Source: Spirochaetaceae bacterium (GTDB lineage Bacteria > Spirochaetota > Spirochaetia > SZUA-6 > Bin103). Taken from it: a stretch of 21,039 nt of DNA. A program made the position numbers and the translations under genes. The stretch is taken from positions 1 through 21,039 of the forward strand of contig JAPPNY010000150.1 in NCBI GenBank assembly GCA_028818385.1, read 5' to 3'. Below are positions 1-19,328 of this stretch, one piece after another. Position 1 is the stretch's first letter. Each line of letters starts with the position of its first letter. Under the pieces are notes generated by a model that did no database searches, was not told where the DNA came from, and saw nothing but the letters and a program-made list of their open reading frames with translations.

Positions 1-521
1 ACGCGCTCCTCCTGACTCGCTCTCCCGAAACCGGGGATTGCCGGACAGGAACTAACTATGCTCAGACAGTCGACCTACGAGTCCCTCGTGAAGTGTTCGG
101 GGAGGTTGCCTCGACGCCGCTCGTGCGCCGCCACTCGGACGCGGCGAGCATTGCCGGCCTCGTCAAGGAGGGCTCCGTACAGGTGGTCAAGGTGGCCTCG
201 CACCGCAAACTCCCGCTTGCACTCGGCCGCGGTGAGGCCGCCGCCATCCGACTCTGGTTCGATTCCGATGGGGATCTGTTGTTGTCCGATGACGGTCGTG
301 CGATCCGCACGTGTCGTATTCTGCGACTGCCGTTCACGAGTTCGCCACGTGTCGTTGTCGACCTGTACAGGTGTGGAGCAATCCGCCTGAACCGGGCGAG
401 GAGAGCCCTTGAGATGTTGGCGGTAGCAGGAAGATACAGCCGCGATGTCGTAGCTGCTGCGTTGACGGCGCTGCAGGAGGAGCATGAAGATGACCAAGCC
501 GACAACGATCCGTCTCTCTGA
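1..521 (+). CDS. PIN-domain (DUF3368-like) toxin, 5' end outside the window
   Basis: The frame is open from base 3 to the TGA at 519-521. Upstream of the first possible start (GTG at 93) the translation still looks like a PIN domain (a segment ending VPREVFGEV, which resembles the helix with the second acidic residue), so the real start probably lies left of the window. The rest has the DUF3368 pattern: a GRGEAAAI helix, the core strand LLLSDDGRA with the conserved Asp, and a C-terminal helix pair. PIN domains of this kind are Mg-dependent RNases, usually toxins. The first catalytic Asp is not visible because the N-terminus is missing. The 3' end overlaps the following antitoxin-like gene, which supports a toxin-antitoxin unit. 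The order (toxin first) is the reverse of the usual UPF0175-DUF3368 arrangement. The target RNA is unknown. Confidence 0.72.
   Translation, partial: ALLLTRSPETGDCRTGTNYAQTVDLRVPREVFGEVASTPLVRRHSDAASIAGLVKEGSVQVVKVASHRKLPLALGRGEAAAIRLWFDSDGDLLLSDDGRAIRTCRILRLPFTSSPRVVVDLYRCGAIRLNRARRALEMLAVAGRYSRDVVAAALTALQEEHEDDQADNDPSL
475..480 (+). promoter_or_regulatory. Shine-Dalgarno site deciding the antitoxin start
   Basis: AGGAGG lies inside the end of the toxin gene. It is 3 nt from the ATG at 484 and 9 nt from the in-frame ATG at 490. The second spacing is the more usual one, so 490 is preferred. Confidence 0.5.
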
Positions 522-792
522 CGAGGTCCTGAACGAACTCGACCGGCGCGCGCGAGCCCGCGGCAAGGATCGTGCGACGCTGTTGCGGGAGTTGCTTCAG
601 GACGCACTGGACCGGGACACGGAAGATGAAGTGCTAGCTTCGTATCGTGCCGGTCGACTTTCGCTGTCACAAGCCGCTTCACGACTCGGCACCGACGCAT
701 GGTCGTTGTTTGACATTCTGGCGCGGAGGGGGGAAACGTTGAGCGTGTCGCTGGAGGACTGGATGGACTCCGGATCGTCACGATCCGCGTAG
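490..792 (+). CDS. RHH / UPF0175-type antitoxin
   Basis: A 100-residue protein (102 if the ATG at 484 is used). The first 40 residues have the ribbon-helix-helix pattern: a short strand TTIRLSD followed by EVLNELDRRARARG and a second helix. The C-terminal half matches the UPF0175 antitoxin pattern (EVLASYRAGRLSLSQAASRLG, then a DAWSLFDILARRG helix). Such proteins neutralise PIN toxins and usually repress their own operon through the N-terminal DNA-binding part. The gene overlaps the upstream PIN gene by about 30 bp, so the two are almost certainly translationally coupled. The stop codon TAG lies within the TANNNT box that precedes the next gene. The family assignment is by pattern recognition; the pairing follows from context. 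Confidence 0.75.
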   Translation: MTKPTTIRLSDEVLNELDRRARARGKDRATLLRELLQDALDRDTEDEVLASYRAGRLSLSQAASRLGTDAWSLFDILARRGETLSVSLEDWMDSGSSRSA

Positions 793-801: not shown

Positions 802-1962
802 ATGAAGATCACCTCTGTCGAAACGCTCTGCCTGTCGCGGGCCCACGAGCCCGAACGCCAGTGGATCACCGGCTCGATCCGGGCGGTCAAGGCCGACTGC
901 CCCATCGTCGTCATCGACACGGACGAAGGCGTTCGCGGCATCGCCGAGCCCAGCGCCTACGGCACTCCGTCGCGCATCCGCGAGCGTGTCACCGAGCTGG
1001 CAGCCGGCCTGATCGGCCGCGATCCGCTCGATCCGGACATCACGCCCCGGCTTACCGGTGGCGACCGCAGCGACGACATCCCGCTGGCCGGCATCGACTC
1101 CGCCCTCTGGGACCTGCGCGCCCGGCTCGCCGGCCGGCCGGTGAGCGAGGTGCTCGCCTCCGTCGGCGGCCCCGCCACCAACCCGCCGCTGCGACGCGTG
1201 CGCCTGTACGCGTCCGGCGGCGTCAGCTACGACTGGGAGGACGATCCCGAACAGCTCGTGCGGGAGGCGCTCGCCCATATCGCCGCCGGCTACACGGCGT
1301 TCAAGATGCGCGTCGGCACCGAGTGGAGCCGCTCGGGAGTCGACGCCGCCCGCATGATCGACCTGCTGCGCCGCGTTACCGACGCGGTGGAGGGCCGCAT
1401 GGAACTGATGCTGGACGGCAACTGCCGGCTGAACGAAGCCGACTCCCACACGATCGCCGGCGCCCTGGACGAGCTGAAGTGGACGTGGTTCGAGGAGCCC
1501 ATGCCGCGCGATCCGGAGACGTACGCCCGGCTCAACCGCGCCGTCGATCTGCCGATCACCGGCGGCGAGGTGTTCAGCCGGGCGGAGCAGTTCGATCCCT
1601 ACCTGGAGGCGGGCGCGCTGGCGATCGCCCAGCCCGACGTGGGCGTCTGCGGCATCGGCGAGTGGCTGCGCACCGTCGAGCGCGCCCACCAGTGCGGGGT
1701 CGACATCTGCCCCCACTCCTGGCACAACGGCCTGATGGGGGTCGCCCACGCCCACGCGGTGGCCGCGCTTCCGCGGCCGCGCGTCCTAGAGCTCTGCATG
1801 GTGCAGGGACCGCTGCAGTGGGGGATCCTCCGAGATCCGCCGACGATCGAGGACGGGCACCTGCTGCTGCCGGACGGCCCTGGCTGGGGCGTGGAGCTCG
1901 CCGACGACCTGGAAGCGCGCTTCCCCTATCTCGACGGCCACTACACCGCCCCACTCGACTGA
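802..1962 (+). CDS. Mandelate racemase / muconate lactonizing enzyme family protein (enolase superfamily)
   Basis: A 386-residue enolase-superfamily enzyme of full length. It has an N-terminal capping domain (about 1-130) and a beta/alpha barrel. Visible catalytic features are the KMR motif (K168, R170), the metal ligands D205 (LMLDGN), E231 (WFEEP) and E256 (GGE), the D279 (QPDVGVCG) and H305 (CPHSWHN) pair typical of the mandelate-racemase group, and E330. Members abstract the proton alpha to a carboxylate. Most of those with this D-H pair are sugar-acid dehydratases or racemases. The exact substrate cannot be read from sequence. The gene stands alone between the toxin-antitoxin pair and the convergent tyrS, with only 9 nt before the tyrS stop. 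No ribosome-binding site is visible; a TAGACT box lies 6 nt upstream of the ATG. Confidence 0.9.
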   Translation: MKITSVETLCLSRAHEPERQWITGSIRAVKADCPIVVIDTDEGVRGIAEPSAYGTPSRIRERVTELAAGLIGRDPLDPDITPRLTGGDRSDDIPLAGIDSALWDLRARLAGRPVSEVLASVGGPATNPPLRRVRLYASGGVSYDWEDDPEQLVREALAHIAAGYTAFKMRVGTEWSRSGVDAARMIDLLRRVTDAVEGRMELMLDGNCRLNEADSHTIAGALDELKWTWFEEPMPRDPETYARLNRAVDLPITGGEVFSRAEQFDPYLEAGALAIAQPDVGVCGIGEWLRTVERAHQCGVDICPHSWHNGLMGVAHAHAVAALPRPRVLELCMVQGPLQWGILRDPPTIEDGHLLLPDGPGWGVELADDLEARFPYLDGHYTAPLD

Positions 1963-7842: not shown

Positions 7843-8256
7843 TTACAGCTCGGCGGCCAGTCGCCTCCGCAGCGCGTCGACGGCCGCGAGCGTTTCCTCC
7901 GCTCTGGCCACGGAGTCCTCGGCTTCGTCGCACGTGATAGACTCGAAGTCACCGTAGTCGACGTCCTCCCGACGAGACAGCAGCGTCTTGACGTGTTTGA
8001 CGATCGAAATGGGGAGCAACTCGGTCTTGATGAAGTGCAGGCTGAGCATCGTGACGGCGCCGGCATGAGACCCCGGATCTACGCCTTCGAGTATGAGCAG
8101 GGAGCGGACTGCGGCAAGCGCCGCGTAGTAGCTGCGGTTCACCGAGGTGTTGAGGCGGCCCTGTTCGAGGTTCGCGCGGGCGTCGTCGAGTGCGGCCTGT
8201 GCCTTCTCGAACCTGATGCCGCTCAGGGCACGCTTGTCATCAGCGGAGAGGGTCAA
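7843..8256 (-). CDS. HEPN-domain protein (toxin partner of the MNT gene)
   Basis: A 137-residue, mostly helical HEPN protein. Characteristic pieces are the N-terminal KAQAALDDARANLE helix, NRSYYAALAAVRSLL (40-54), and a SHAGAVTMLSLHFIKT segment (63 on). HEPN proteins paired with a nucleotidyltransferase usually act as RNases. Here the histidine common in relatives (RxYYAxFH) is replaced by A48, which may mean weak or no RNase activity. The start is TTG at 8256-8254, overlapping the TGA of the upstream MNT gene in TTGA. That is a classic translational coupling, and no strong independent ribosome-binding site exists. Confidence 0.82.
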   Translation of the reverse strand: MTLSADDKRALSGIRFEKAQAALDDARANLEQGRLNTSVNRSYYAALAAVRSLLILEGVDPGSHAGAVTMLSLHFIKTELLPISIVKHVKTLLSRREDVDYGDFESITCDEAEDSVARAEETLAAVDALRRRLAAEL

Positions 8257-8576
8257 ACCTGAATGCTCTCGGCGCTGACGTTCTGGTAGAAAGGGGTATG
8301 ACGCTGCCGCTCAAGGTCGAACGTGGCCACATCCTTGATCACCGGATCGAAGGAGATGCCACTGCGCTGCTCATGCTCGACGCACAGATCGATTATCGAC
8401 CGCTCCAATTCGAGCGTGCGCTCACGCACGACGACCAGGATATCAAGATCCGAGTCGCCGCGGTGATCTCCCCTCACGCGCGAACCAAACGCGTGCACGG
8501 AGACGACGAGATGCGGGAGCGTGTCCCGTAACTCGGCGCCAAAGTGGGCCAGTGCCGCGCGCGTGTGAGCAAACAT
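8253..8576 (-). CDS. MNT-type nucleotidyltransferase (antitoxin)
   Basis: A 107-residue minimal nucleotidyltransferase. The signature GSRVRGD...SDLD is complete: G31-S32, then D43 and D45, with a third acidic residue probably at D77 (ISFDPVI). Partners of HEPN toxins in this family neutralise the toxin, in the MntA-HepT case by AMPylating it. The ATG at 8576 follows GGGAGG with 7 nt between, a strong ribosome-binding site that decides this start over upstream in-frame codons. The stop overlaps the HEPN start, so the pair forms a two-gene operon. The 120 nt to the divergent 8697 gene hold both promoters. Confidence 0.88.
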   Translation of the reverse strand: MFAHTRAALAHFGAELRDTLPHLVVSVHAFGSRVRGDHRGDSDLDILVVVRERTLELERSIIDLCVEHEQRSGISFDPVIKDVATFDLERQRHTPFYQNVSAESIQV

Positions 8577-8685
8577 GGTGGACCCTCCCAATGTAGCACG
8601 GGCTGTGGGTCGGCACGGTCCTGTTCGCTGCACAACCCGACCCGACCGTCGTCCGCGCCGCTGTCGCAACGGGCATCGGCCCGAG

Positions 8686-12107: not shown

Positions 12108-14006
12108 CTAAGGACTGGTGACGATCGTGCCGTTGTCTCCCACCGCCACGAAGCGCCCGTCGCCCCAGGCGACGTCCATCAGGCGATCAAGGGTACCAAC
12201 GTCGCCGGCCGGATCCCAGCGGTCGCCATCTGCGCTGATCATGACGCTGCCTCCGCGGTAGCTGACCGCCACGAAGCGCTCGCCACTCCATGCGACCGCC
12301 GTGAGGTGCTCGCCGGCCAGATAGTCGTGGTCGTCCGCCAACTCCCATTGATCGCCGTCGCGGCTGTGCACGACCGCGCCCTCGTTGCCCCACCCCACGG
12401 CGACGAGTTTCTCACCGCTCCATGCCAAGCCTTCGAAGCCGTAGTAGTACCTCCGACTGCCGTCATCACGCGCCGGTTCGTGCCGATACGGCACGGCGGG
12501 CCGGGTCGCGAGCTGCCACGTGTCGCCGTCGGTGCTGTGGACGACGATGCCGTAATATCCGACGGCGACGAAGACCTCGCCGTTCCACGCGACGTCGTTT
12601 AGCGTCTCCGTGGTGGCACTGTCGGCAGCCGGCGACCAGCGGTCGCCGTCGTCGCTGTGCATGATGGCTCCGTCGTGGCCGACAGCGACGTAGCGCTCAC
12701 CATTCCAGGCGACCGCGTGAGGGGTCTTCAAGGACATGCGCGCCCGCTGCCAGCGATGGCCATCCGAGCTGTAGGCGACGCCGTAACCGACGGCAACGAA
12801 ACGGTCGCCGTCCCAGATGACGTCGTTGATACGGAACCCTGGATCGCCGCTGGCTTCCTGCCATTCCTGCCCGTCGAAGCTGTGCACGATCTCGGGCGGC
12901 CAGCCGCCTACCGCTACGAACCGGTCTCGGCCCCACGCGACGGCTTGCAGGTCGGCTCGAGCCGTGCCGGAGCCCGCCTCGCTTGCCTCCTCCCACAAGA
13001 CTCCGTCCGGGCTGTGCAGGATGGGACCGTTGGAGTCGATAGCGACGAACCTGGAGCCTCCCCAGGCAACGGCTCGGAACTCCCCCCTTCCATGCCACAA
13101 CGCCCGCTCCCAAGCATCTCCGTCACCGCTGTGCAGGATCGTATAGGACCCGATCGCGACGAAGCGCTCACCGCTCCAGACGATGTCGCTCAACGGCCCC
13201 GAGGCCCCGGCTGGCGTGAGGCTTGCCGGCTTCCAGTGATAGCCGTCGGCGCTGTGGACGATCACGGTCCGGTGCTCCTCGTCAGATCCCACGGCAACAA
13301 ACATCTCTCCGTTCGAGGCGACGCCGGTGAGAGTCGCCGAGATGCCGGTGTCCGCCGGCTGCCAGCGCTCGCCTTCGGCGCTGGAAACGACCGTGCCGTC
13401 GCTGCCGACGGCCGTGAACCGGCCGCCGGCCCACGCGACCCCATGAAGATCGGCGCGGGTCGCCCTTTCCCGCACTCGCCTCCAGCGGTCGCCGTCGCTG
13501 CTCTCTATGATCAGGCCGTCATCGCCAACCGCCACAAAGCGACCGTTGCCCCACGTGACGCTCTCCACGTCTCCCGAACCTCTGAAGCGTGCCCGTTGCC
13601 AGCGATCGCCATCGCTGCTGAACACGATCTGGTAGCCGCTGACCGCGACGAAGCGGCCACCGCCCCACGCCACGTCCCGGAGCCAACCTGAGCTGACGGC
13701 ATAGCCTGCTTCGACCCAGCGGTCGCCGTCGCTGCTGTGCACGATGAGTCCGTCGTCGCCGACCGCGACAAAGGTCTCACCGTTGGAAACGACACTCCAC
13801 AGGCTCGCTCCCGTCGTTCCCTCCGGAGATACGAAGCCACCGCCTCCCCGGACCAGCCGCCACACCGAGCCCGCGGCATCACCCAAGGAAGGGTCAGCGG
13901 TCTGAGCAACTGCCGTCGCCAGCGAGAGGAACAGACAGAGCACCACCGCCAACAGGGCCTCCGCGACGCTCCTCAACGGATCATGCCGCCGAGATCTCTG
14001 TCCCAT
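12108..14006 (-). CDS. Secreted protein of 14 beta-propeller repeats
   Basis: 632 residues. The ATG at 14006 is preceded by GGAGG with 7 nt between and gives a clean signal peptide: basic start, hydrophobic core at about 14-33, and a likely cut in AVA-Q (34/35). The ATG at 14042 would put 12 extra residues before it and is rejected. From about residue 67 to the end I count fourteen repeats of about 40 residues built on the pattern VAW-G-RFVAVG-DG-IVHSSDGDRW. The last repeat lacks its final W-containing strand, while the N-terminus just after the signal peptide has a spare one (SVWRLVRGG), as in circularly closed propellers. No catalytic motif is visible. It is probably a periplasmic or extracellular binding or scaffold protein. 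Confidence 0.85.
   Translation of the reverse strand: MGQRSRRHDPLRSVAEALLAVVLCLFLSLATAVAQTADPSLGDAAGSVWRLVRGGGGFVSPEGTTGASLWSVVSNGETFVAVGDDGLIVHSSDGDRWVEAGYAVSSGWLRDVAWGGGRFVAVSGYQIVFSSDGDRWQRARFRGSGDVESVTWGNGRFVAVGDDGLIIESSDGDRWRRVRERATRADLHGVAWAGGRFTAVGSDGTVVSSAEGERWQPADTGISATLTGVASNGEMFVAVGSDEEHRTVIVHSADGYHWKPASLTPAGASGPLSDIVWSGERFVAIGSYTILHSGDGDAWERALWHGRGEFRAVAWGGSRFVAIDSNGPILHSPDGVLWEEASEAGSGTARADLQAVAWGRDRFVAVGGWPPEIVHSFDGQEWQEASGDPGFRINDVIWDGDRFVAVGYGVAYSSDGHRWQRARMSLKTPHAVAWNGERYVAVGHDGAIMHSDDGDRWSPAADSATTETLNDVAWNGEVFVAVGYYGIVVHSTDGDTWQLATRPAVPYRHEPARDDGSRRYYYGFEGLAWSGEKLVAVGWGNEGAVVHSRDGDQWELADDHDYLAGEHLTAVAWSGERFVAVSYRGGSVMISADGDRWDPAGDVGTLDRLMDVAWGDGRFVAVGDNGTIVTSP
12111..13808 (-). 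repeat. Fourteen tandem propeller repeats (about 115-165 bp each)
   Basis: Each unit codes for one W-G-x-x-RFVAVG ... SSDGDRW repeat. Unit length varies (longest is the eleventh, with an insert rich in Arg and Tyr), and DNA identity between units is moderate. It is an old protein repeat and not a recent DNA amplification. Confidence 0.8.
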
Positions 14007-14048
14007 GAGCCTACCTCCGCACGTTGTGGCTTCAATGTCCACATGGGC

Positions 14049-14150: not shown

Positions 14151-15257
14151 TCAGAGCAGGCGATCGGTTCTGACGTCGGTGCGATCCCGGTCCAGGTCCA
14201 TGCCCAAGCCGGCCGCAGCGCCCAGCGTCAACGCCCCGTCGCGCACGCTCACTGGCGTGCGGATCAGGCCGTCGGCGGTGCGCGCCCGCTCGCCGATCTC
14301 GCCCATGACCCACGGCAGGAACATCGCGTTCCGCACCGCGCCCATGAGGCCGGCCGCGGCGAAGCCGCCGTTGCCGTCGTCGGGATCGATCTCGCAGTTG
14401 ACGCCGAACGCTTCGGCGGCGCGGGCGATCTTCAACGCCTCGGTGATGCCGCCGACGTCCGGGATGCGTACCCGGATCAGGTCGGCCGACTGCCGGGACA
14501 GGTGCGTCGCTGCCTGCCGGGCGGCATCCGGGCCGCCGACGGTCGCCAGGACCGGGGTATCGAGCTCCGTGGCCAGCAGCGCCAGCGTTTGGCCGTCCGC
14601 GCCCGGGAGCGGATCCTCGAACCACGTGTAGCGGGCCTCGTCGAGCGCGCGGCCGATGGCCAGCGCCTCCAGGTGGCCGCCGACAGGAACGCCGCGGTAC
14701 AGCAACGGGAAGTCCGCCGGCACCGCGTCCCTGACCGCGCGGACCGCATCCAGAACGCGCTTCCGCACGGCGGCCGGCGCCTTGGCTCCGATCGGCGTGG
14801 TGGTGCCCGCGACCCGATAGCCGCGGTAGCCGTCACGCACGGCGCCCGCCGCCTCAGCCGCGGCTTCGTCCGTGTCGCAAGCCGCCTCGCCCGAGAGACA
14901 GGCCGGGATCTCCGTCCGGAAGCCGCCGATCGCACGGTAGAACGGCAACCGCAGCGCCTTCGACCAGAGGTCCCAGAGCGCGATGTCCACGCCGGCCAGG
15001 CCCGCCGGGTCGCTTCCGGACGCGGCGGCGCGCAGATCGCGCCAGAGGCGCTCCCGGTCGGCAAGCGGCCGCCCGGCGAGCGCCGCGCGCATGCGGTCGA
15101 CGGTCGCCGCCTCCGGAAGCCGGTCACGGCAGATCAGCGCCGCGCCCCAGACCTCCGCGCCTGCTCCCTCCGCAGAGATGCGCACGACGCCGACCGGCGC
15201 CTGCACCTGCAGCCGCGTGATCGTCGCTTCCGCCAGCACGCTTCCATCCACCGCCAT
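14151..15257 (-). CDS. Degenerate enolase-superfamily protein (probable pseudoenzyme)
   Basis: A 368-residue protein with the full architecture of the mandelate racemase group: capping domain, the GLAGVDIALWDLWSKA helix (86-101) and the barrel. The active site is mostly gone. The KxK position reads Y-R-V-A (R148, A150), the first metal ligand D is R188 (LLYRGV), the second is kept (E214, WFEDP), the third is V240 (LATVGG), the later Asp is kept (D267, IPDVGG) and the His position reads D291 (CEIDPD). With one of three metal ligands left, normal Mg-dependent chemistry is unlikely. The ATG at 15257 overlaps the TGA of the upstream intact paralogue (TGATG), so the two are translated together. 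It may be a structural partner or have a new activity. The frame is intact and codon use matches the neighbours, so it does not look like a decaying gene. Confidence 0.8.
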   Translation of the reverse strand: MAVDGSVLAEATITRLQVQAPVGVVRISAEGAGAEVWGAALICRDRLPEAATVDRMRAALAGRPLADRERLWRDLRAAASGSDPAGLAGVDIALWDLWSKALRLPFYRAIGGFRTEIPACLSGEAACDTDEAAAEAAGAVRDGYRGYRVAGTTTPIGAKAPAAVRKRVLDAVRAVRDAVPADFPLLYRGVPVGGHLEALAIGRALDEARYTWFEDPLPGADGQTLALLATELDTPVLATVGGPDAARQAATHLSRQSADLIRVRIPDVGGITEALKIARAAEAFGVNCEIDPDDGNGGFAAAGLMGAVRNAMFLPWVMGEIGERARTADGLIRTPVSVRDGALTLGAAAGLGMDLDRDRTDVRTDRLL

Positions 15258-16435
15258 CACACCACCTCCAGCGCTTCCGACTCGATCCGCTCCCAATCGG
15301 GCTCCGGCACCGGCAGGTCGCCGCACTGGATGCGCATGTGCCCGTCGTCGATCACCTTGATGCCCTGGAACGTGAGGGTCGCCGGGTCCTGCGGCGGCGG
15401 CAGCGGCCCCTCCGAGCCGTACTCGTAGAGCGGGTCGTTGTGGATGGCCAGCACCACGTGCGAGTTGCCGCCGTGCACGTCCAGGCCGAAGGTCTCGGCG
15501 AGCTGCGCCAGCTTCATCTGGCCGGTCAGCCCGATGGCTCGTTGGCGGACGATGTCCGTGGCCTGCATGGCGATGAATGGCGACGCGTTGAACGGCTGCC
15601 CGGCCAGCGACCCGATCCACTCCATGGCCATCACCGGCAGGTCCAGCGCCGCGCACAGCTTCTTCAGGCCCATCAGGTCGAAGTCCTGCAGCGGCTCCTC
15701 GATCCAGGCGTAGCCCAGGCGCTCCATCTCCCGGCCGATCCTGATCGCCTCGTCACAGGTGTAGTGCTCGACCGCGTCGTGGATGAGGATGAAGTCGTCT
15801 CCCATCGCCTCCCGCAGCGCCCGGAACAGCTCGGTGTTGCCGGCGACACCGCGGTAGGAGTGGTCCTTGCCGCCCTTGAAGCCCTGCTCGCGCGCCTTCA
15901 TCGCATCGGCGACGTAGTCGTCGACGGTCCTGCCGCCGATGTTGCGGTAGGCCGGGATCGAGTCGCGCGCGCCGCCGAGCAGGCGGTAGAGCGGCAGGCG
16001 CGCATGGCGGCTGGCAAGGTCCCAGAGCATCTCGTCGACGGCCTGGATCAGGCCGCGGCCGGTGTACATGAACCGCTGCGTGTACCAGAGGCGCTGCCAG
16101 ACGCGCTCGCGGTCGAAGGCGTCCATGCCGATGAGCAGGTGGGCGATCTTCACCTGGAACTCCCTCGCCTGCCATGCCAGCTCGCTCGCGCTGAATCCGC
16201 TGGCGTAGGTCGCGTGCGCGTCCAGGTCGCCGTCGGTGACCAGGCGCAGAATCAGGTCGTAGGCAGGCGCCTGCTCACGGTATTCCGGGATTTCGGCGTC
16301 GGAGCCGATCCCCTCGCCGTGGGTGAACAGGCCGGAGAGGCCCGGCGGCACCAGCTCCATGCCGCCGCGGCCGACCGCGGCCCGTTCCCGCTCGCCTGCG
16401 GCGACGACGTAGAGCTTGACTTCCTTGATCAACAA
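15257..16435 (-). CDS. Enolase-superfamily (mandelate racemase group) dehydratase-like enzyme
   Basis: 392 residues if started at TTG 16435. The active site looks complete: lysines K187 and K190 (GFKGGKD), metal ligands D220 (LIHDAVE), E246 (WIEEP) and E272 (AMEWIG), D294 (QATDIV) and H321 (DVHGGNSHV). The HGGN-HV motif is reminiscent of sugar-acid dehydratases such as L-rhamnonate dehydratase, but the substrate is not certain. The start is unusual. AGGAGG lies 8 nt before TTG 16435, and family members begin at about IKEVKLYVV, whereas the GTG at 16459 lies upstream of that site. It is the first gene of a leftward pair with the degenerate paralogue and is divergent from the aldo/keto reductase gene, with 145 nt between. 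Confidence 0.87.
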   Translation of the reverse strand: MLIKEVKLYVVAAGERERAAVGRGGMELVPPGLSGLFTHGEGIGSDAEIPEYREQAPAYDLILRLVTDGDLDAHATYASGFSASELAWQAREFQVKIAHLLIGMDAFDRERVWQRLWYTQRFMYTGRGLIQAVDEMLWDLASRHARLPLYRLLGGARDSIPAYRNIGGRTVDDYVADAMKAREQGFKGGKDHSYRGVAGNTELFRALREAMGDDFILIHDAVEHYTCDEAIRIGREMERLGYAWIEEPLQDFDLMGLKKLCAALDLPVMAMEWIGSLAGQPFNASPFIAMQATDIVRQRAIGLTGQMKLAQLAETFGLDVHGGNSHVVLAIHNDPLYEYGSEGPLPPPQDPATLTFQGIKVIDDGHMRIQCGDLPVPEPDWERIESEALEVV

Positions 16436-17550: not shown

Positions 17551-18648
17551 ATGAAGCGAGAAAAGCTGCGGGTCGCCGTGGTCGGCGGGTGCGGCGACTG
17601 GGGCCGCCGCTACACGTACGCCTACTCCCGCCACCCGGAGGCGGAACTGATCGCCCTGGTCGACACCGCCCGCGCGCGCCGCGCGCGGTTCGCCGAGCAC
17701 TTCGGGATCCCCCGCCAGTTCGACACGGTCGAGGAGCTGCTGGCGTGGCAGGTGCCGGACGTGGTCGCCAACATCCTGCCGGTGAGCGCCGCCCGCGATG
17801 CCGTGATCGCGTGCGCGGAGGCGGGCGTCAGGGGGATCTCCTGCGAGAAGCCGATCGCCGCGAAGCTGGCCGACGCCGATGCCATGATCGCCGCCTGCGA
17901 GGAGCGCGGCGCGGCGTTCGCGTGCGGCACCGCGTGGTGGGAGGTCCACCAGGTGACCCGGATCGGCGAGTGGGTGCGCGACGGCGCCATCGGCCGGCTC
18001 ACCGGGGCGGCGATCGACGGCTTCCTGGCGGAGGGCGACCAGGTGTCCGGCCTGGGCTGCGTGATCCTCAACTTCCTACGCTTCGCCACCGGCGACGAGG
18101 TGGCCTGGGCGGAAGGCTGGACGGTGCCCGAGGAGGCGGCTGCCAGCGACGACGACTGCGCCGCGTACGGGACGCTGGGCATGACCGGCGGCTACGAGTG
18201 CATTGCGGCGCGAGAGGTGCCGGCGGAGGGCGCCCACAGGGTGGCGCTGTTCGGAGAGGACGGCGCCGTGTACCTGGCCGGTGGCGACGGCACGGTGCTG
18301 ATCAAGGGCACGGGGACCAGCGCGCGCCCGGTACGGCCCGAGTTCCTGGACGAGCCGACCGACGACGAGCGGCTCGGGGGGAAGTTCCTGGGCGTCGTTG
18401 ACAGCTTGATGAACGCCGTGCGCGAGGGCCGCCCCGCCCCGTGCAGCGGCCACGACTACCGGCAGGTGCTCGAGATCGCTGCCGCCATCAAGCTGTCGGC
18501 GCGCGAGGGACACCGCCGGGTGGCGTTGCCGCTCGCCGACCGGTCCGCAACCGTGCTGCCGATGCCCTACCGCTGGCACGGCGGCGACGTCACCGGCTGG
18601 GAGGTGATCAACCGCGGCGAGCCCACTCCCATTCACCCGGCCGACTGA
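17551..18648 (+). CDS. Gfo/Idh/MocA-family oxidoreductase
   Basis: A 365-residue dehydrogenase. The Rossmann motif is VVGGCGDWGRR (10-20), and the catalytic lysine is K100 in CEKP. A C-terminal alpha/beta domain ends with the conserved NAVREGRPAPCSGHDYRQVLE helix region near residues 290-310. Members oxidise or reduce sugars, inositols and their derivatives using NAD(P). The gene has a GGAGG-type site in the 16-nt gap behind the aldo/keto reductase gene and surely belongs to the same transcript. Together the two may take an aldose through successive oxidations, feeding the dehydratase-like proteins encoded divergently; this pathway is an inference from neighbourhood only. Confidence 0.9.
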   Translation: MKREKLRVAVVGGCGDWGRRYTYAYSRHPEAELIALVDTARARRARFAEHFGIPRQFDTVEELLAWQVPDVVANILPVSAARDAVIACAEAGVRGISCEKPIAAKLADADAMIAACEERGAAFACGTAWWEVHQVTRIGEWVRDGAIGRLTGAAIDGFLAEGDQVSGLGCVILNFLRFATGDEVAWAEGWTVPEEAAASDDDCAAYGTLGMTGGYECIAAREVPAEGAHRVALFGEDGAVYLAGGDGTVLIKGTGTSARPVRPEFLDEPTDDERLGGKFLGVVDSLMNAVREGRPAPCSGHDYRQVLEIAAAIKLSAREGHRRVALPLADRSATVLPMPYRWHGGDVTGWEVINRGEPTPIHPAD

Positions 18649-18661
18649 CTCAGGCCCCCGT

Positions 18662-19096
18662 CTACGCAGGCGCCTGGAGGACCACAGGGCGCGACCGAGG
18701 GTAGGAGGCGATGGCGCGGTCGAACGTCACCATCGTCAGCCCGGCGGACGCAGCGAACGCCACCAGATAGGCATCGGTCCATACCTTTGGCGAGTAGGTC
18801 CGGGACGAGGCGTACTCGCGCCACAGCCGCTCCAGTCCCGCCGCTTCGGCCACGAATCCCGTCCGTTCGTCACCGCTCAAGGCGTCGTAGCACGACCATG
18901 CATCCCGCAGCGTGAGCGCTTCAGCGCCGAAGACGCTGGGATTGCTCGCGAGCCGGAGAAACCCCTGCTGGGTGACGCGGCACCACAGGGCGGTGCGGAC
19001 GCCGACGGTGTCGAACCACGTCCTCGCCGTCCCATGGTGCGCATGGACCTCGAAGGCCAGTGCCAGCCAGACGTTAACGTCCGGCAGCACGCGCAT
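18662..19096 (-). CDS. vapC: PIN-domain toxin (VapC family)
   Basis: A 144-residue PIN protein. The acidic centre is visible as D6 (LPDVNVWLAL), D108 (WTDAYLVAFA) and D126 (TFDRAI). The TQQGFLRLASNP block (43-54) is typical of the VapC branch that cleaves structured RNA. The ATG at 19096 was chosen because the PIN strand starts there; the open frame upstream runs inside the antitoxin gene. The start overlaps the antitoxin's 3' end by 23 bp, the usual antitoxin-first order. The stop lies 13 nt from the end of the convergent Gfo/Idh/MocA gene. Confidence 0.9.
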   Translation of the reverse strand: MRVLPDVNVWLALAFEVHAHHGTARTWFDTVGVRTALWCRVTQQGFLRLASNPSVFGAEALTLRDAWSCYDALSGDERTGFVAEAAGLERLWREYASSRTYSPKVWTDAYLVAFAASAGLTMVTFDRAIASYPRSRPVVLQAPA

Positions 19097-19328
19097 CCTC
19101 CTCGGCCAGGGCGCGCGCAAGCGAGTCTTCCGTAATCCGCAGGGAGCCGGGAGTCTTCGAAGGCACCAGCGGCAGGGACACCCGGTGCCCCGCACCGCCC
19201 AAGGCACTGTGGGTGAGATGTTGTTCCAGCGCCTCGGTCACGTAGGCCCGCAGGCTCTTGCCGTCGAGCGATGCCGCCGCTTTCGCGCGGCGCAGCAGCG
19301 GATCGGGGATGTCGATAGTCGTTCTCAT
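19074..19328 (-). CDS. vapB: RHH antitoxin (VapB type)
   Basis: An 84-residue protein. The N-terminus MRTTIDIPDPLLRRAKAAA is a ribbon-helix-helix DNA-binding pattern, followed by a SLRAYVTEALEQHL helix and a disordered Pro/Ser stretch. The C-terminal SLARALAEEDARAAG segment probably wraps the toxin. Such proteins bind VapC and repress the operon. The ATG at 19328 gives the normal family start. The ATG at 19364 would place the palindromic operator inside the gene and is rejected. No Shine-Dalgarno sequence precedes the start. Confidence 0.85.
   Translation of the reverse strand: MRTTIDIPDPLLRRAKAAASLDGKSLRAYVTEALEQHLTHSALGGAGHRVSLPLVPSKTPGSLRITEDSLARALAEEDARAAGR

Follow-up and report, generated by a model that had tools for sequence, protein, structure and literature searches.

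Why is an intact enolase-superfamily enzyme encoded side by side with a relative whose active site appears to be gone? The question is raised by two genes, here called P1 and P2, that follow each other in tandem on the minus strand of a 21,039-nucleotide stretch of a Spirochaetaceae genome (contig JAPPNY010000150.1, hereafter the window). An earlier note, made from the letters alone, had described the two as an overlapping pair of enzyme and pseudoenzyme and had proposed that the second protein is a dedicated inactive partner of the first. The features of the locus are:

16244..16408, minus strand: codons 10-64 of P1, the capping loop between strands 1 and 2
15257..16435, minus strand: P1, 392 aa, TTG start, enolase-superfamily enzyme
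15264..15269, minus strand: GGAGGT, ribosome-binding-site-like, 6 bases ahead of the P2 start and within the 3' end of P1
15255..15259, minus strand: TGATG junction, with base 15257 common to the P1 stop and the P2 start
14151..15257, minus strand: P2, 368 aa, inactive partner as predicted from its residues
16581..17534, plus strand: aldo/keto reductase, divergent neighbor of the pair
17551..18648, plus strand: Gfo/Idh/MocA oxidoreductase, neighbor of the pair

The overlap of stop and start codon was described correctly, and the same one-base overlap of the TGATG type is present in a second locus (L001).

P1 Retains a Complete Active Site

P1 carries both MR_MLE domains past the Pfam cut-offs (C-terminal PF13378, 1e-24; N-terminal PF02746, 3.3e-5) and a full mandelate-racemase-type site, consisting of the K190-x-H192 motif of strand 2, the metal ligands D220, E246, and E272 at the ends of strands 3, 4, and 5, and the D294-H321 Asp-His dyad of strands 6/7. 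Each of these residues was the same in 54 out of 54 P1 homologues, a sample that, like the 85 P2 proteins used below, was picked from longer lists and does not give population frequencies. Among the P1 rows taken from genome loci the site was complete in 21 out of 23, the exceptions being the frame-shifted copy of L013 and the cut copy of L038. From its residues P1 looks like a working Mg-dependent enzyme. Since none of the curated NCBIfam equivalogs was matched at its cut-off (the best was the L-talarate/galactarate dehydratase, 110.8 bits vs 500), its reaction class can only be inferred and is most likely the dehydration or epimerisation of a sugar acid. The nearest solved relatives of P1 are 1rvk/4hch from Agrobacterium tumefaciens (4hch is titled D-glucarate dehydratase), which are the best match in sequence and fold for both P1 and P2. 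Their K-x-H motif and the D, E, E, D, and H residues align with those of P1, but the identity is only ~30% and the enzyme consists of one polypeptide that has a capping region of its own.

P2 Is a Full Barrel with a Decayed Site and No Capping Loop

P2 shares 33% identity with P1 across 243 aligned columns. Its MR_MLE N- and C-terminal domains are both past the Pfam cut-offs, its predicted single-chain structure is the full two-domain enolase-superfamily barrel, and its best solved relative is again 1rvk/4hch. At the metal-binding positions R188 and V240 replace acidic residues and only E214 is retained; R148 replaces the lysine, E289 sits at the H321 column, and D259 is retained. Judged by the residues that the superfamily itself requires, P2 is dead, and the observation of an enzyme/pseudoenzyme pair in which the second protein has lost two of three ligands, the lysine, and the histidine next to a complete P1 site is confirmed. 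The further statement that both proteins share the same architecture holds for the domains and the overall fold but not for the capping loop, which covers the active site in the enolase superfamily: these ~50 residues are gone from P2 and from all P2 rows listed (20 out of 20), metal-intact ones included.

Within the chosen set of P2 homologues, at least one metal-ligand acid is gone in 84 out of 85 sequences and D259 is constant in all 85, and a histidine occupies the H321 column in 37 out of 85, where the register is uncertain. In the clade of P2 that contains the window, E214 is constant, the first-ligand column varies between R, G, and A, and an acidic loop of strand 7, NCEIDPDDGNGG, has 8 of 12 residues invariant among 12 aligned orthologues. 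This loop leaves room for a new role of P2 in the window clade.

The Gene Pair Is Conserved across Bacterial Groups

When one genome per species was scanned with two peptide patterns taken from the close P2 family, 17 loci were found, of which three contain P2-family genes. The gene order is P1-P2 in L001 and L013 (both titled Spirochaetia/Spirochaetaceae), as in the window, and P2-P1 in L002 (titled Latescibacterota) and throughout the phylum of L002. Whole-genome searches of 64 genomes of that phylum, in which loci were kept if they scored above other families, identified 20 P2 loci, 20 P1 loci, and one P1 fragment that lies by P2 at a contig end. All 20 P2 loci adjoin P1 or a fragment of P1; in G042, P2 itself is divided between two contigs. 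Neighboring pairs, by which the earlier note proposed to check its reading, are found at 20 of the 21 P1 loci of the phylum as well as in L001 and L013. In the remaining genome (G063) a contig end cuts P1 on the side on which P2 is expected, and no P2 was detected elsewhere in the assembly at E 1e-50. The gap between the two genes ranges from -4 to 64 nt across loci except in G061, where 1.37 kb with an opposite-strand frame lie in between. None of the 26 matches of the whole-genome search in this phylum contains an internal stop. Five couples of P1 and P2 protein clusters with equal longest-contig size (7830, 16217, 46704, 48865, and 4964) suggest, without proving it, that further pairs exist. 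Overall, the P1/P2 pair is old and conserved across different bacterial groups.

The genes around the pair vary from locus to locus, as judged by eye, while the pair is constant. The aldo/keto reductase is arranged in L001 as in the window and was not matched at E <=1e-8 in any of 15 loci from the L002 phylum; a Gfo/Idh/MocA gene near the pair has a strong homologue in L001 and L013 and a weak one in L055 and L054. In two genomes a seeming third enolase-superfamily gene directly follows P1, again by eye (L051 5265-6464, minus strand, in G059; L049 to 9555, plus strand, in G055), so that these runs read P2-P1-third. Both pair genes of L013 (7008-8997, from a Spirochaetaceae MAG) are frame-shifted, which is either an assembly error or real decay.

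The window itself holds a third enolase-superfamily protein (802-1962, plus strand) that by eye retains a K-x-R motif, the D, E, and E residues, and a histidine motif of the form PHS; its score against P2 is 58.5 bits, and it is absent among the matches listed for P1. A 644 aa protein (12108-14042, minus strand) displays many W-x-x-V...S-x-DG-x-x-W repeats by eye, has only weak or partial Pfam matches, and resembles a secreted beta-propeller. Two small overlapping frames (7843-8669, minus strand) are by their look presumably a toxin-antitoxin pair of the nucleotidyltransferase/HEPN type, and the frames at 93-792 (plus strand) and 18662-19207 (minus strand) are taken to be PIN-domain toxin-like, the former adjoining what we take to be a small DNA-binding antitoxin-like frame.

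Searches of Spirochaetota and Chloroflexota genomes covered samples of these larger groups. Among 247 genomes sampled from the phylum of L001, P2 (E 1e-72) or P1 (E 1e-90) was found in the genome of L001 alone, and among 297 genomes of its class two, those of L001 and L013, were found to have P1. Two of 400 Chloroflexota genomes contain P1 at full score, and in neither was a P2 found beside P1 or elsewhere above background. A third Chloroflexota match (360 bits, L071) was rejected as P1, as it belongs to another family in the tree. The P1-only lineage is nested inside the paired P1s, beside the partners of decayed P2s, with moderate support (82/98), suggesting that P2 was lost or that P1 was transferred alone. 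As these two genomes carry P1 alone, P1 can dispense with P2 in at least one lineage.

Stepwise Decay within a Single P2 Clade

All P2 sequences form one clade (support 100/100, bootstrap 100). Classified by the residues at the three ligand columns, the 23 P2 rows from genome loci consist of ten D-E-E (with K-x-H), one D-E-A, seven D-D-V, one D-A-A, one cut D-A-?, two R-E-V (the window and L001), and one frame-shifted sequence. The D-E-E proteins branch first and the rest form one nested clade (100/99) in which the D-E-A copy branches first. The simplest reading is that the third ligand was lost once and that further losses then differed by lineage; the inner order of the decayed clade is less sure because, as flagged by the tree program, long branches meet inside it and several rows are of odd composition. 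Rows that were frame-shifted, cut, or badly trimmed were kept outside the trees (the L013 pair, the P2 of L042 and L063, and the P1 of L038 and L061), and seven long-branch rows, including the P2-like P0060, were also dropped from the final tree. The D-E-E proteins have a glutamate in place of the histidine at the H321 column and are without the capping loop, and because of this it is unlikely that P2 ever worked alone as an ordinary enzyme of the enolase-superfamily kind. The nearest relatives of P1 in the tree are other enzymes rather than P2, and P2 did not arise from P1 by a recent duplication.

Dead P2s Are under Purifying Selection, with No Measurable Excess in the Pocket

The dN/dS ratios (Nei-Gojobori, codon bias uncorrected) of dead P2s lie between 0.17 and 0.32 in 22 comparisons and those of their P1s between 0.03 and 0.12. 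The comparison of the window with L001 gives 0.116 for P1 and 0.316 for P2, and in the D-D-V group P2 (0.17-0.29) exceeds P1 (0.03-0.11) in 21 out of 21 comparisons. Within the close D-E-E group the two proteins are similar (P1 0.08-0.14, P2 0.06-0.16, six comparisons); distant D-E-E comparisons (P1 0.18-0.65, P2 0.14-0.42) were left unused at dS 0.5-1.2 and with one cut P1. Dead P2s are under purifying selection, as befits a maintained paralogue, and the dN/dS check proposed in the earlier note speaks for its reading.

The conservation of the pocket was compared with that of the barrel on 17 self-chosen columns, two of them beside an insertion, and 5000 random column sets. The P1 pocket has an entropy of 0.12 against 0.83 for the barrel (none of the 5000 random sets reached a value this low), and nine D-E-E P2s have 0.07 against 0.52 (fraction 0.0006). 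The decayed pockets showed no measurable excess of conservation over the barrel (window clade 0.39, D-D-V 0.17, D-A-A 0.13, 5000 random sets each), a test whose power is limited in groups this small or closely related (20, 37, and 14 rows). Dead P2s look as if they are kept as proteins and less as active sites, because purifying selection acts on them and yet their pocket shows no such measurable excess. The same result disfavors the alternative raised in the earlier note, a turn of P2 to metal-independent chemistry.

Potential Explanations for the Gene Pair

The explanation that we lean toward, with somewhat better than even confidence, is that P1 and P2 assemble into a hetero-oligomer that acts on a sugar acid and in which P2 is the dedicated non-catalytic subunit. 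P1 would supply the Mg-dependent site with its K-x-H base, D/E/E metal ligands, and D-H dyad, and P2 would be a full barrel, stripped of its capping domain and its chemistry, that may serve in the assembly, stability, or regulation of P1. We find it an even call whether the heteromer had a particular history, in which P2 at first bound metal but already lacked the capping loop, and then lost its site step by step along nested lineages, starting with the third metal ligand and continuing with residues that differ by lineage, with the two genes staying together even as their order was reversed. The idea of a dedicated inactive partner stands in so far as the pair is conserved and P2 is under selection; it is weakened by the two Chloroflexota with P1 and no P2, which speak against an obligate pair, and by the metal-intact basal P2s, whose D-E-E ligands and K-x-H motif would fit an ancestor with two working enzymes. 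The columns that stay fixed in dead P2s (D259, and E214 in the window clade) would likewise count against a mere subunit.

These last points are shared by a rather unlikely alternative, namely that the two proteins act separately in one pathway and that P2, once a second sugar-acid enzyme, turned in some lineages to metal-independent chemistry or ligand binding. Pathway enzymes commonly cluster and conserved adjacency fits two steps of one pathway; the nine D-E-E P2s combine the full ligand set and K-x-H with their conserved pocket (0.07 vs 0.52), the window clade conserves its acidic strand-7 loop, and D259 (85/85) and, in an uncertain register, the H321-column histidine (37/85) persist. Three dead P2 groups without measurable pocket conservation (0.39, 0.17, and 0.13), the R/G/A variation at the first ligand in the window clade, and the missing capping loop in the 20 P2 rows listed speak against this alternative. 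It is improbable that P2 is merely a decaying gene, left over from two enzymes of which one is no longer needed, its adjacency inherited. The dN/dS of dead P2s is two to six times that of their partner P1s, and the nesting of the P1-only Chloroflexota (82/98) indicates that loss probably happened, but the ratios (0.17-0.32, 22 pairwise) are not close to 1, internal stops are absent from all 26 matches with a frame shift in L013 only and in both genes, the dead P2s make up a single long-branched clade, and the pair remained intact through the change of gene order. A transient regulator or chaperone of P1 that binds substrate or product without being a stable subunit would share the genomic evidence of the subunit, and the complete fold of P2 could still bind a ligand; the lack of measurable pocket conservation in the three decayed groups speaks against this reading, which is most improbable.

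Known Systems and Implications

To our knowledge, the characterised bacterial enzymes of the enolase superfamily are homo-oligomers. An enolase dimer with one live and one dead subunit was reportedly engineered from one enzyme in 2006; it resembles the proposed P1-P2 complex in that a live subunit is paired with a dead one from the same superfamily but is lab-made from one enzyme, whereas P1 and P2 are two natural, long-diverged genes. In a limited literature search, partly of excerpts, this dimer was the only case found and no natural enzyme/pseudoenzyme pair in the superfamily was. The nearest natural precedent found is the aspartate transcarbamoylase of Pseudomonas, in which, according to the sections consulted, an inactive dihydroorotase homologue is needed for activity and assembly (PMC7053772). 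Like the proposed P2 it is an inactive homologue of a metal enzyme that serves a partner enzyme, but its partner is unrelated, whereas P1 and P2 belong to one superfamily and the need for P2 is a proposal. Many enolase paralogues are described in SAR202 (PMC6946804) and in Gulf of Mexico bacterioplankton (PMC5596340), and the passages covered of these two studies do not mention a conserved enzyme/pseudoenzyme pair. The many mandelate-racemase-like paralogues of SAR202, among which the passages covered describe no inactive member (PMC6946804), compare with 30, 45, and 41 A3-profile matches (fragments included) in G001-G003. An enzyme with a pseudoenzyme partner is thus a known kind of arrangement, of which our limited searches found no natural enolase-superfamily case described.

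The conserved pair also carries a warning for annotation, as 10 of 120 listed proteins are named 'L-alanine-DL-glutamate epimerase-like enolase superfamily enzyme' by one source. The enolase superfamily is a textbook case of one scaffold giving rise to many reactions, and a conserved pair of a live and a dead member would add pseudoenzyme partners to this repertoire. Because natural intermediates exist (D-E-E, D-E-A, D-D-V, D-A-A, and R-E-V P2s, each by an intact P1), the order in which a subunit decays, with heteromerisation before or after the loss of catalysis, is directly testable.
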